Of a stretch of 64,000 nucleotides of DNA, positions 56,325 to 59,252 are shown piece by piece; the stretch's first letter is position 1, and every line of letters begins with the position of its first letter. A program made the position numbers and the translations under genes. Source of the stretch: Planctomycetia bacterium (GTDB lineage: Bacteria; Planctomycetota; Planctomycetia; Gemmatales; HRBIN36); NCBI GenBank assembly GCA_016795155.1, contig JAEUIE010000023.1:1-64000 (forward strand), written 5' to 3'. The notes beneath the pieces were generated by a model that was not told the DNA's origin, made no database searches, and worked only from the letters and a program-made list of their open reading frames with translations.

Positions 56325-57716
56325 ATGTTGATGCGAACCATTTCTGCGACATCACTGTTGCTTTTGACTTACTGCACCATCCAGGCGACCGATTGGCCAC
56401 AATGGCTGGGCCCCAAGCGAGATGGCGTTTGGCGCGATACCGGCCTACTCGAAAAGTTTCCGGAGAAAGGCCTCAACATCCGCTGGCGCAAACCGCTCGG
56501 CAAAGGTTATGCAGGCCCTGCCGTTGCTGATGGCAAAGTTTACGTGATGGACTGGAACCGCTCCAAGGATAAGGATGGCAACAATGTCCGTCCCACCAAG
56601 GAAGGCATTCCCGGTGCTGAAAGGCTTCTCTGCCTCGACGAAAAAACAGGCGAGATCATTTGGGAATATTCACACGCGGCACATTACAAGGTTTCCTACC
56701 CCAATGGCCCGCGCGTTACGCCGGTTATTGAAGACGGCAAAGTCTACTGCATCGGCGCCATGGGACACATGTTTTGCCTCGATATCAAAACAGGCAAAGC
56801 CCTGTGGACCAGGGAACTGATGAAGGAATTCGATACGCCTTCGCCCGTGTGGGGATTTTCAGCTCATCCACTTATCGTTGGCGACCTGATTTACACCCTG
56901 GTGGGCGGTAAGGATTCCGCTGTTGTCGCATTCGACAAGAACACCGGCAAAGAACGATGGAAAGCACTCAATTCGCAGGAAGTGGGCTATGCTCCACCGA
57001 TCCTGATGAACGTTGCAGGCACCAGCCATCTGATCATCTGGCTTTCCGAAACGGTGAACGGCCTCGATCCGCAAACCGGCAAAGTCCTCTGGACTCACAA
57101 ATATCCTGCTGATGGTAAAGTGGATCGCCCGGCTGTTTCCATCGTCATGCCTCGCCAGGTGGAAAATGACAAGCTCTTTGTCACTACCGTTTACCACGGC
57201 CCGCTGATGCTCAAGCTGCATCAGGACACCCCTGCCGCCAGTGTCGTCTGGCAGGTCGAAGGCAGCATGAACAAGCCACCATCCGGCTTATCCGCACTAA
57301 TGGCTACGCCGGTCTACCTCAAGGGGCATCTCTACGGTGTGGACATGCAGGGACATCTGATGTGTTGCGATGCAGTGGATGGCAAAGTCAAATGGCAGAC
57401 CTTCGATCCCATCATCGATGACCAGGCAAAGAAATCCAAACGCGCCATCAAGGAAATCGATTGTGGCAACGCCTTCCTGGTGCAACTGGGCGATGACAGC
57501 GATCAGTTCCTCCTCTTTAACGACACCGGCTTTGTCATCAAGGCCAAACTGACACCCGAAAAGTACGAAGAGCTGGGCCGGTTCAAGCTGATCGAACCCA
57601 CGCACGATGCACGAGGCAGGACTGTGGTCTGGTCGCATCCAGCCTGTGCCAACAAGCACATCATCGCCCGCAACGATAATGAGATCGTCAGTGCATCCAT
57701 GGAGAAGGCGAACTGA
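56325..57716 (+). CDS. Exported PQQ-like propeller protein (second copy)
   Basis: A 463-residue protein with signal peptide MLMRTISATSLLLLTYCTIQA and a mature N-terminus DWPQWLGPKRDGVWRDTGLL, the usual WPQWxGPxRDG opening of planctomycete PQQ-repeat proteins. Blades are seen as VADGKVYVMDWNRSKDKDGN, CLDEKTGEIIWEYSHAAHYK, CLDIKTGKALWTRELMKEFD, FDKNTGKERWKALNSQEVGY and LDPQTGKVLWTHKYPADGKV. The family is an outer-membrane or periplasmic propeller; no active site is assigned. The coding region ends 5 bp before the REP-RAYT unit. Confidence 0.88.
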   Translation: MLMRTISATSLLLLTYCTIQATDWPQWLGPKRDGVWRDTGLLEKFPEKGLNIRWRKPLGKGYAGPAVADGKVYVMDWNRSKDKDGNNVRPTKEGIPGAERLLCLDEKTGEIIWEYSHAAHYKVSYPNGPRVTPVIEDGKVYCIGAMGHMFCLDIKTGKALWTRELMKEFDTPSPVWGFSAHPLIVGDLIYTLVGGKDSAVVAFDKNTGKERWKALNSQEVGYAPPILMNVAGTSHLIIWLSETVNGLDPQTGKVLWTHKYPADGKVDRPAVSIVMPRQVENDKLFVTTVYHGPLMLKLHQDTPAASVVWQVEGSMNKPPSGLSALMATPVYLKGHLYGVDMQGHLMCCDAVDGKVKWQTFDPIIDDQAKKSKRAIKEIDCGNAFLVQLGDDSDQFLLFNDTGFVIKAKLTPEKYEELGRFKLIEPTHDARGRTVVWSHPACANKHIIARNDNEIVSASMEKAN

Positions 57717-57720
57717 TTTG

Positions 57721-57850
57721 GTAGTCCTCACTCTCCGAGTGAGGACGGCGGGGTTGAGCTTACTTTCCATAGACATGTAAATAATCGATGTCTCGGAAGC
57801 ATTAGAGATAACAAAATACAATGAGTCATCACTCGGAGAGTGATGACTAC
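57721..57850. repeat. Left REP pair (BIME-like) of the RAYT unit
   Basis: First REP: GTAG then GTCCTCACTC (57724-57733), TCC, GAGTGAGGAC (57737-57746). Second, inverted REP: GTCATCACTC (57825-57834), GGA, GAGTGATGAC (57838-57847), then TAC, so its reverse strand also starts GTAG. Between them is a spacer with a CGATGTCTCGGAAG core. The same module recurs in the same orientation at 58522-58652. Confidence 0.88.
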
Positions 57851-58513
57851 TATCTCTTTTCGTGAGTAGTGCAAAAACTCCCCAACTATGAGATTGGCAT
57901 AATGAGGATTGTCACGGAGATATTCGCGAAGAAAACGGAATTGTGATTCGGAACGAACTAAGTGATCAAACCCGTCTTGTTGCCAGAACCGGCCTGATCG
58001 GTGCAAAGACTGGTTAATCTGATTGGCAGTGAAACGTTTCCATGATTCGCATTGTGTAAGCATGGATTCGTTGTCTGGAAATGCAACCAGCAAGTGAACA
58101 TGATTTGGCATGATGATATAGTCAGTCAATAGATATCGTTGGCCGTCGAAATGGTGCAGGCTTTTGCTCACCATAGAGGCGAGTTGCGGATTTCGTAAAA
58201 CACATTCACCGTGGCATTTGTCTAATGCTGTCATCCATCGATTTTGAAATAGCCGCAGGAATTCACGCTGAAGGTCAATGGGCAATAGCCGGTGAGCATC
58301 CGGCTGACTGGCTTGATCGATTGGCAGATGATGTGCAATCAACCATTCTATTCTTTCGGATTGCCACGCCTTCACTATATGTTCGGGCATCGAATCATGA
58401 GTTCGCCAAGTGATGAAACTGACTGCCCCTTCCTGTTGCCAATGTGGAAGATGACGCTCAACAACGGTCGTATCATCCTTCGGCTCAAAGAAACGCAGTA
58501 GATCAGGAGTCAT
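57728..58513 (-). CDS. REP-associated tyrosine transposase (RAYT, Y1 family)
   Basis: A 261-residue protein starting MTPDLLRFFEPKDDTTVVER. The HUH motif is in YLLTDYIIMPNHVHLLVAFP (HVH). The family end segment is FWQQDGFDHLVRSESQFRFL and REYLRDNPHYANL. Upstream in-frame codons are just REP sequence, so ATG 58513 is used. The last 35 or so residues (VVITLRVMTHCILLSLMLPR and beyond) are read from the left REP pair, and the stop TGA lies in a REP stem. I cannot decide the catalytic tyrosine. RAYTs cut and join single-stranded DNA at REP sequences and are thought to spread them. The gene is flanked by two copies of the same REP module, which is the expected REPtron arrangement. Confidence 0.85.
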   Translation of the reverse strand: MTPDLLRFFEPKDDTTVVERHLPHWQQEGAVSFITWRTHDSMPEHIVKAWQSERIEWLIAHHLPIDQASQPDAHRLLPIDLQREFLRLFQNRWMTALDKCHGECVLRNPQLASMVSKSLHHFDGQRYLLTDYIIMPNHVHLLVAFPDNESMLTQCESWKRFTANQINQSLHRSGRFWQQDGFDHLVRSESQFRFLREYLRDNPHYANLIVGEFLHYSRKEIVVITLRVMTHCILLSLMLPRHRLFTCLWKVSSTPPSSLGE

Positions 58514-58521
58514 GATGGATA

Positions 58522-58652
58522 GTAGTTCTCTCTCGCCGAGTGAGGACGGCGGACTTGAGCCTCCCACACATCGCAACATAAACGATCGATGTCTCGGAAG
58601 AATTGGAGACTGGCGTCAGTCGCTGAGTCATCACTCGGAGAGTGATGACTAC
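58522..58652. repeat. Right REP pair (BIME-like) of the RAYT unit
   Basis: First REP: GTAG at 58522-58525, stem about 58525-58550 (TCTCTC / GAGTGAGGAC form, less perfect than the left copy). Second, inverted REP: GTCATCACTC (58627-58636), GGA, GAGTGATGAC (58640-58649), then TAC. The spacer shares CGATGTCTCGGAAG with the left copy. The two modules are direct repeats about 800 bp apart. Confidence 0.86.
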
Positions 58653-58661
58653 TATCCAGTT

Positions 58662-59252
58662 TTATTGCCACGTCTTCTTCGGAACACGCTGTACACTCAG
58701 TTCCGGTTTCTTTTCGTTCATGCGGTGGGCATCCTGAATCTGAATCTGCATGGGTGTGCCCATCAGTTTTGTTCCATCGTTACCCTGGTACTCCACCGTC
58801 ATGCGAACACTGCGCAGGGCATTGTTATAAGTGTTCCAAGGCAGCCAGAGTGAATAGCCCCAGCCCGACAGGTCCTTCCGCATCAGCATCGGCAGATGTT
58901 CAGGCAGAATGGTCCAGGTTTCCAATGGTTGAAGCTGGCCACCCTGCAGCGGCTTGTCTTCATACATGCGAACAATCAGTGTGCCATTGACGGCAATTGT
59001 TTCAGCAGGTTTGCCTGGCTTTTGCTGCTGGAAAATAACCCGGCCTGCAAACCCAGGTGAAGGCATGCCGCCCTGATGTGCCATCAGTTGAACATCAACC
59101 CCTTCCTGCCAAAATGCAATCAACTCGTTGGGCGTGCCACATGGAGCTTTCTTTTCTTCCCACAGGGACGTGAAATCCGTGTCAGAAAAAGTTTTGCAGC
59201 CAGCCAGCATGGCCAGCGTGAGGAGTACCAGTTTCCCCAACATCCTTGTCAT
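58662..59252 (-). CDS. Predicted lipoprotein, unknown
   Basis: A 196-residue protein. ATG 59252 (MTRMLGKLVLLTLAMLAGCK) has AAGGAT 7 nt upstream and gives a proper signal with lipobox LAGC. The mature part has a two-strand/one-helix feel: LIAFWQEGVDVQLMAHQGG, FAGRVIFQQQKPGKPAETIA, VNGTLIVRMYEDKPLQGGQL. It continues with LPMLMRKDLSGWGYSLWLPW and a final beta segment. No family is recognised. The gene follows the secretin by 25 bp on the same strand, so it may be an outer-membrane partner of that secretin, in the manner of a pilotin; that is inference. It ends 9 bp before the right REP pair. Confidence 0.78.
   Translation of the reverse strand: MTRMLGKLVLLTLAMLAGCKTFSDTDFTSLWEEKKAPCGTPNELIAFWQEGVDVQLMAHQGGMPSPGFAGRVIFQQQKPGKPAETIAVNGTLIVRMYEDKPLQGGQLQPLETWTILPEHLPMLMRKDLSGWGYSLWLPWNTYNNALRSVRMTVEYQGNDGTKLMGTPMQIQIQDAHRMNEKKPELSVQRVPKKTWQ

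Follow-up and report, generated by a model that had tools for sequence, protein, structure and literature searches.

A probable REPtron in a Gemmatales genome, and relatives of its transposase read in frame inside host genes

The unit near the end of the window (the window being the whole 64,000-nucleotide stretch analyzed here) is an intact REPtron with a probability of roughly 87%, i.e., a stationary, single-copy RAYT gene that lies between REP pairs of its own family. Some relatives of this RAYT are located in frame inside host genes, an arrangement that is shown in the assembled sequences. These in-frame RAYTs, some of which are in essential genes, are a much stronger lead than the window unit.

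The RAYT gene and its flanking modules

Several properties of the predicted protein place it among the RAYTs (Table 1). The match to Pfam Y1_Tnp is just above the cut-off (25.4 bits versus 23), and a profile of eight homologues has E. coli TnpA-REP (PDB 4er8) as its sole sequence match in the PDB (E 3.5e-4). The AlphaFold model has a mean pLDDT of 83.5, and its best fold match is also 4er8 (E 2.5e-5), with IS608 and ISDra2 next; the match to 4er8 is modest (TM 0.35 by query length and 0.52 by target). The alignment to 4er8 matches the YxxxN motif as well as the residues that read GTAG (W-Q, D/E-H and R). Residues W94, Q95, E100, H101 and R104 of TnpA-REP read the GTAG foot, and D is known to replace this E in some RAYT subclasses (PMC6006769). 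Residues H138, H140, W177, D183, Y198 and N202 are invariant in an alignment of 30 homologues. The protein thus combines an HUH motif and a single catalytic tyrosine in a Y1 fold, as expected for a RAYT, and W177, Q178, D183, H184 and R187 are, by alignment, its predicted GTAG readers. The closest homologues are 42-58% identical and belong to the same order; one that is 57% identical is from another family. The same RAYT protein and hairpins are present at L063 (genome G010) and L091 (Fimbriiglobus), which suggests that the order is Gemmatales and that the window genome is from a family outside Gemmataceae.

Each of the four hairpins around the gene consists of GTA, a 10-bp stem and a 3-nt loop, and they form two outward-facing pairs, which places GTAG REP hairpins on both sides of the RAYT gene as in other REPtrons. 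The left and right modules are direct repeats (77% identity over 88 nt and 78% over 134 nt). The initial annotation had described two GTAG hairpin-pair modules in the same orientation that frame a Y1-type gene, and this description is confirmed, including the positions of the four REPs. The REP pattern (up to three mismatches) has five matches in the window, all at the module sites and with opposite-strand readings of the palindromes counted, and none in dinucleotide shuffles of the window. The two direct modules are probably the outcome of a REP pair having been captured or duplicated at each side of the gene, and they could allow deletion between them. A separate observation is that one REP is located 8 nt 5' of the RAYT start codon (58511-58547), where a clear Shine-Dalgarno sequence is absent; this could possibly serve translational control.

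The direct modules, the HUH-Y1 enzyme and the compact unit between two gene ends might also suggest an autonomous IS200/IS605-type insertion sequence that moves whole and has the REP modules as its ends. We consider this very improbable, as the unit is single-copy in the genome and the remaining REP sites match REPs only. Furthermore, the protein has the GTAG-reading residues of a RAYT, and REPtrons reportedly do not move as a whole (PMC6006769). Several copies of the unit or empty sites would be expected of an IS200/IS605 element; there is one copy, and a search via the flanking genes in six family-mates found no empty site because the neighboring genes are not syntenic in these genomes. The PQQ-type neighbor is a member of an extensive group of paralogues, and the gene on the other side is elsewhere or missing in the family-mates.

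Table 1. Features of the window unit, and host genes of related RAYTs that are nested in frame.
Feature	Position or loci	Strand	Remarks
RAYT (TnpA-REP) gene, 261 aa	57728..58513	(-)	ATG 58513-58511, TGA 57730-57728; Pfam Y1_Tnp, PDB 4er8
Conserved RAYT core, residues 1-221	57851..58513	(-)	pLDDT mostly >90
HUH motif PNHVH, residues 136-140	58094..58108	(-)	Invariant in 30 homologues except the middle V, which is nearly invariant
W177-Q178, D183-H184, R187	57953..57985	(-)	Aligned with GTAG-foot readers W94, Q95, E100, H101, R104 of E. coli TnpA-REP
Catalytic tyrosine Y198 (YLRDNP motif)	57920..57922	(-)	Invariant; aligned with 4er8
Module-encoded C-terminal tail, residues 222-261 (40 aa)	57731..57850	(-)	Unconserved, predicted disordered
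REP, left module, outer	57721-57746	(+)	RAYT stop codon within its stem
REP, left module, inner	57825-57850	(-)	RAYT frame reads through
REP, right module, inner	58522-58547	(+)	8 nt upstream of RAYT start codon
REP, right module, outer	58627-58652	(-)	
Left two-REP module	57721-57854	none	Direct repeat of 58522-58656, 78% identity
Right two-REP module	58522-58656	none	Direct repeat of left module
PQQ-type beta-propeller gene, neighbor	56325..57716	(+)	REPtron begins 4 bp past its stop
Neighbor gene without Pfam match	58662..59246	(-)	Stop 9 bp from right module
Leucyl-tRNA synthetase (LeuRS)	L155, L118 (1753-4911), L154; also L188, L190, L191		RAYT in editing-domain region, flanked by coding REP hairpins
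Carbamoyl-phosphate synthase large chain (CarB)	L166, L136, L168		Pfam
CCA/polyA polymerase	L146, L153, L161		Pfam
Exonuclease VII (XseA)	L162		Pfam
HsdR	L133, L165, L137		Pfam
Eco57I/MmeI methylases (N6 methylases)	L119, L122, L123, L131		L119, L122 by Pfam; L123, L131 by sequence
SNF2 helicase	L120		Pfam
ADH-MocA oxidoreductase	L132, L150		Pfam
Adenosine deaminase	L163, L115		Pfam
Radical SAM	L151		Pfam
Class I tRNA synthetase	L127		Pfam
DUF1156 protein, window's own order	L070		Pfam

The REP family and the module-coded tail

The genome (5.28 Mb in 68 contigs) has 30 matches to the REP pattern, three of which are opposite-strand readings, which leaves 27 distinct REPs, 23 of them outside the window; the reversed pattern, used as a control, has none. 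The hairpins are therefore not confined to the unit; confinement to it was the result that the initial annotation had named as speaking against its reading. Five outward pairs have starts 74-84 bp apart (C8:159774, C14:15016, C14:77794, C22:6729 and C32:59829, the last with one 27-nt member). Across the 10-pair stems of 19 distinct REPs, 96.8% of the cells are paired. Double-sided compensatory changes are seen in 23 cells, whereas shuffles have 8.7 and slid controls have 0-3. These results imply that the REP hairpin is either maintained by selection or copied in hairpin form. A further outward pair of the window family, with its REPs about 595 bp apart, is located at G000:C29:183035-183680 (L014:888-1533); it may represent a decayed REPtron or a pair separated by an insertion.

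The REP family tracks the presence of the RAYT, as expected for a REPtron. For example, six family-mate genomes are without a homologue of the window RAYT and have 0-2 REP matches, which is the control level, versus 30 here. Across the order, the number of matches is 1-434 (median 36) in the 12 genomes that have a strong RAYT homologue and mostly 0-8 in the 46 genomes without any homologue (Mann-Whitney p=5e-5, 58 genomes, kinship uncorrected); some of the strong homologues are accompanied by few REPs of the window sequence. The homologues at 42-58% identity are also framed by REPs, most of the detailed cases have hairpins on both sides, and several loci share a CTCCG loop in these hairpins. 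Among the 61 free-standing relatives with enough flanking sequence, a strict scan found REP-like hairpins on both sides in 28, on one side in six and on neither side in 27.

Apart from the modest fold match, two observations count against the REPtron reading. The 23 REPs outside the window have varied stems, which suggests low or past activity. The genome also has several other Y1 genes with hairpins of their own, and it is through proximity and co-distribution that this RAYT is assigned to the window REPs. The other Y1 transposase genes are L001 (C8:115331), L002 (C59:30505), L003 (C8:74864), L005 (C14:51955) and L007 (C32:35497), and each is located between its own inverted repeats, which are unlike the window REPs. 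Taken together, the protein family, the fold, the motifs, the flanking hairpins and the dispersed copies support a REPtron, as was originally proposed. By analogy with E. coli TnpA-REP, the RAYT, as an HUH, single-tyrosine DNA nuclease, would bind GTAG-footed hairpins as single strands and presumably cut and rejoin at them; the REP pairs, and not the RAYT gene, would be copied around the chromosome. The RAYT frame would continue through the left module simply because this module is so near to where the gene naturally ends.

The initial annotation had noted that REP sequence codes for the tail of the protein. The stop codon is indeed in the stem of the outer left REP, but the claim was too narrow in scope: both left REPs and the spacer between them, about 40 codons, are read as the tail, not one REP alone. 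It had also proposed that the C-termini of the RAYTs be aligned, and this alignment indicates that the REP-derived tail is real but unconserved among the homologues. Most of them end a few residues past position 217-218 or continue into differing sequence, and residues 227-261 of the window protein have pLDDT values below 50 and are predicted to be disordered. Therefore, the tail is probably a neutral by-product; neither the homologue comparison nor the structure prediction gave a sign of function for it. A REP follows the gene at 40 free-standing loci. The frame ends ahead of this REP at 22 of them, at the TAG within the GTAG head at 10 and inside the REP at one; at the other seven, which include the window unit, it continues past the first REP. 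This is most simply explained by REP pairs that settle immediately after the gene, with the frame then running into them.

Two other explanations of the tail would be surprising. One is that it has a function in the protein or acts as an autoregulator, e.g., by hairpin control at the stop codon or by binding of the RAYT to its own message. The stop codon in a stem, the REP just upstream of the start codon and the TAG stops at the 10 loci noted above would fit such a role; however, the tail is different or missing in every homologue, its pLDDT is low and read-through is limited to the seven loci. The other is that the unit is a decayed relic that lost its natural stop codon, so that the gene runs into the REPs without function. 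The absence of the tail from the homologues and the few REPs in the genome would agree with decay, but the long frame is intact, all of the catalytic residues are kept, the identity to the homologue from another family is 57% and both flanking REP pairs are well preserved. Both explanations are unlikely, and we favor an intact REPtron with a neutral tail.

RAYTs nested in host genes

A survey of 80 named relatives, together with a search of the order, identified about 26 relatives, mostly from Verrucomicrobiota, in which the open frame extends far past both ends of the RAYT. Host domains were recognized by Pfam on both sides of the nested RAYT, or on one side where the locus or the match ends (Table 1). 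Most of the nested loci are from metagenome-assembled genomes (MAGs), although the sites are shared by genomes that were assembled separately, and two of the loci (L123 and L151) are from records that are not labelled MAG. The genomes of L155, L118 and L154 each have a single gene above the LeuRS cut-off, namely the interrupted one (964-979 bits, with the parts summed). The nested RAYTs in the alignment have retained their catalytic residues.

The nested RAYTs differ from the free ones at their beginning. An ATG located 5-26 codons ahead of the LPHW motif is present in two of 24 nested RAYTs versus 49 of 59 free RAYTs (Fisher p=1.8e-10, although the loci are related and not independent). The linkers that join the RAYT to its host are themselves coding, and 22 of the 26 nested RAYTs have inverted repeats in them, mostly hairpins, beyond all 30 shuffles; direct repeats are present in 19 of the 26. 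For example, a two-REP module of about 120 bp is present as a direct repeat of two copies in the CarB gene of L136, which is the layout of the window unit. In another CarB gene (L166), a second in-frame stretch that resembles a REP pair (SNTGFQPV...GKMPELP) is present besides the RAYT, and it is possibly a landing-pad state.

The LeuRS site is the most informative. The RAYT is in frame in three related genomes, and 25 other relatives have a short loop without a RAYT at this site. We rejected the site as a precise empty site, as the RAYT-free loop has 54-65 aa (115 aa in one case) and about 10-15 loop residues also differ. In the three genomes, dN/dS (Nei-Gojobori) is 0.04-0.07 for the RAYT, 0.06-0.14 for the host and 0.16-0.69 for the linkers, and the two hairpins are identical in DNA. 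Deeper pairs from the same gene have the same ranking: the RAYTs of L132 and L150 have a dN of 0.12 and a dS of 1.45, which is near the values for the host parts, and their linkers are looser; in several other nested pairs from the same gene, dS is saturated. An AlphaFold model of the LeuRS-RAYT fusion, made from a three-row alignment only, has a mean pLDDT of 37.8 and was set aside.

It is likely, in our opinion, that a RAYT branch centered on Verrucomicrobiota, and reaching the order of the window genome, lives in frame inside host genes, including essential ones. The REP hairpins would serve as coding linkers, and the RAYT, which is without its own start codon, would be made only within the host protein; purifying selection would act on it and on the host gene jointly. 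The window unit would represent this architecture in free-standing form. A literature search, in which subscription journals were poorly covered, found no report of RAYTs nested in frame, and unexpectedly long proteins of the superfamily were previously discarded as gene fusions or annotation errors (PMC6006769).

The long-term keeping of a transposase that does not jump is an open question about RAYTs. RAYTs such as those in LeuRS and CarB, which have no start codon and, in the measurable cases, a dN/dS near 0.05, make this question testable. Either nesting in an essential gene averts loss of the RAYT, or the host protein has adopted the RAYT. Candidate reasons for keeping it would be protection from loss, a cost-free landing or a function for the host.

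Comparison with known systems

The initial annotation had considered a planctomycete unit with a coding overlap to be unusual, but both aspects were already described in a 2013 survey (PMC3733652). That survey reported GTAG REPs in Planctomycetes, where R. baltica has several such families as well as many Y1 genes, and REPtrons in most GTAG species. It also reported REPs that supply TAG stop codons, flanking repeats that extend into the 3' end of the transposase gene (the 3'ov class) and intragenic REPs. Because Planctomycete GTAG REPs, REPtrons, REP stops and 3' overlaps were thus known, the window unit by itself is an ordinary but complete REPtron. It extends REPtrons to another planctomycete lineage (Gemmatales) and is a clear case of a complete REP module that is read as protein.

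The window unit shares the HUH-Y1 domain and the GTAG-reading residues with the known REPtrons and RAYTs, including E. coli TnpA-REP, those of Pseudomonas and Stenotrophomonas and the GTAG families of Rhodopirellula baltica. Outward GTAG hairpin pairs around the gene and dispersed REPs of the same family are also common to both, and the overlap of a REP with the 3' end of the gene is as in the 3'ov class. The unit differs from them in the sequence of its stem and CTCCG loop, in the long N-terminal region ahead of the HUH core and in having directly repeated modules, one of which is read completely in frame. IS200/IS605 elements, such as IS608 and ISDra2, resemble it in the Y1 HUH fold and in having hairpin substrates; however, the window unit is not multi-copy and mobile, and in place of a single left end and a single right end it has GTAG REP pairs. 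Finally, palindromic repeats that are read as protein in frame, as they are here, are known as the Rickettsia palindromic elements and intragenic REPs of Rickettsia conorii and Opitutus terrae (PMC3733652). Those cases are hairpins alone, whereas the nested loci described here have a whole transposase domain between the hairpins.
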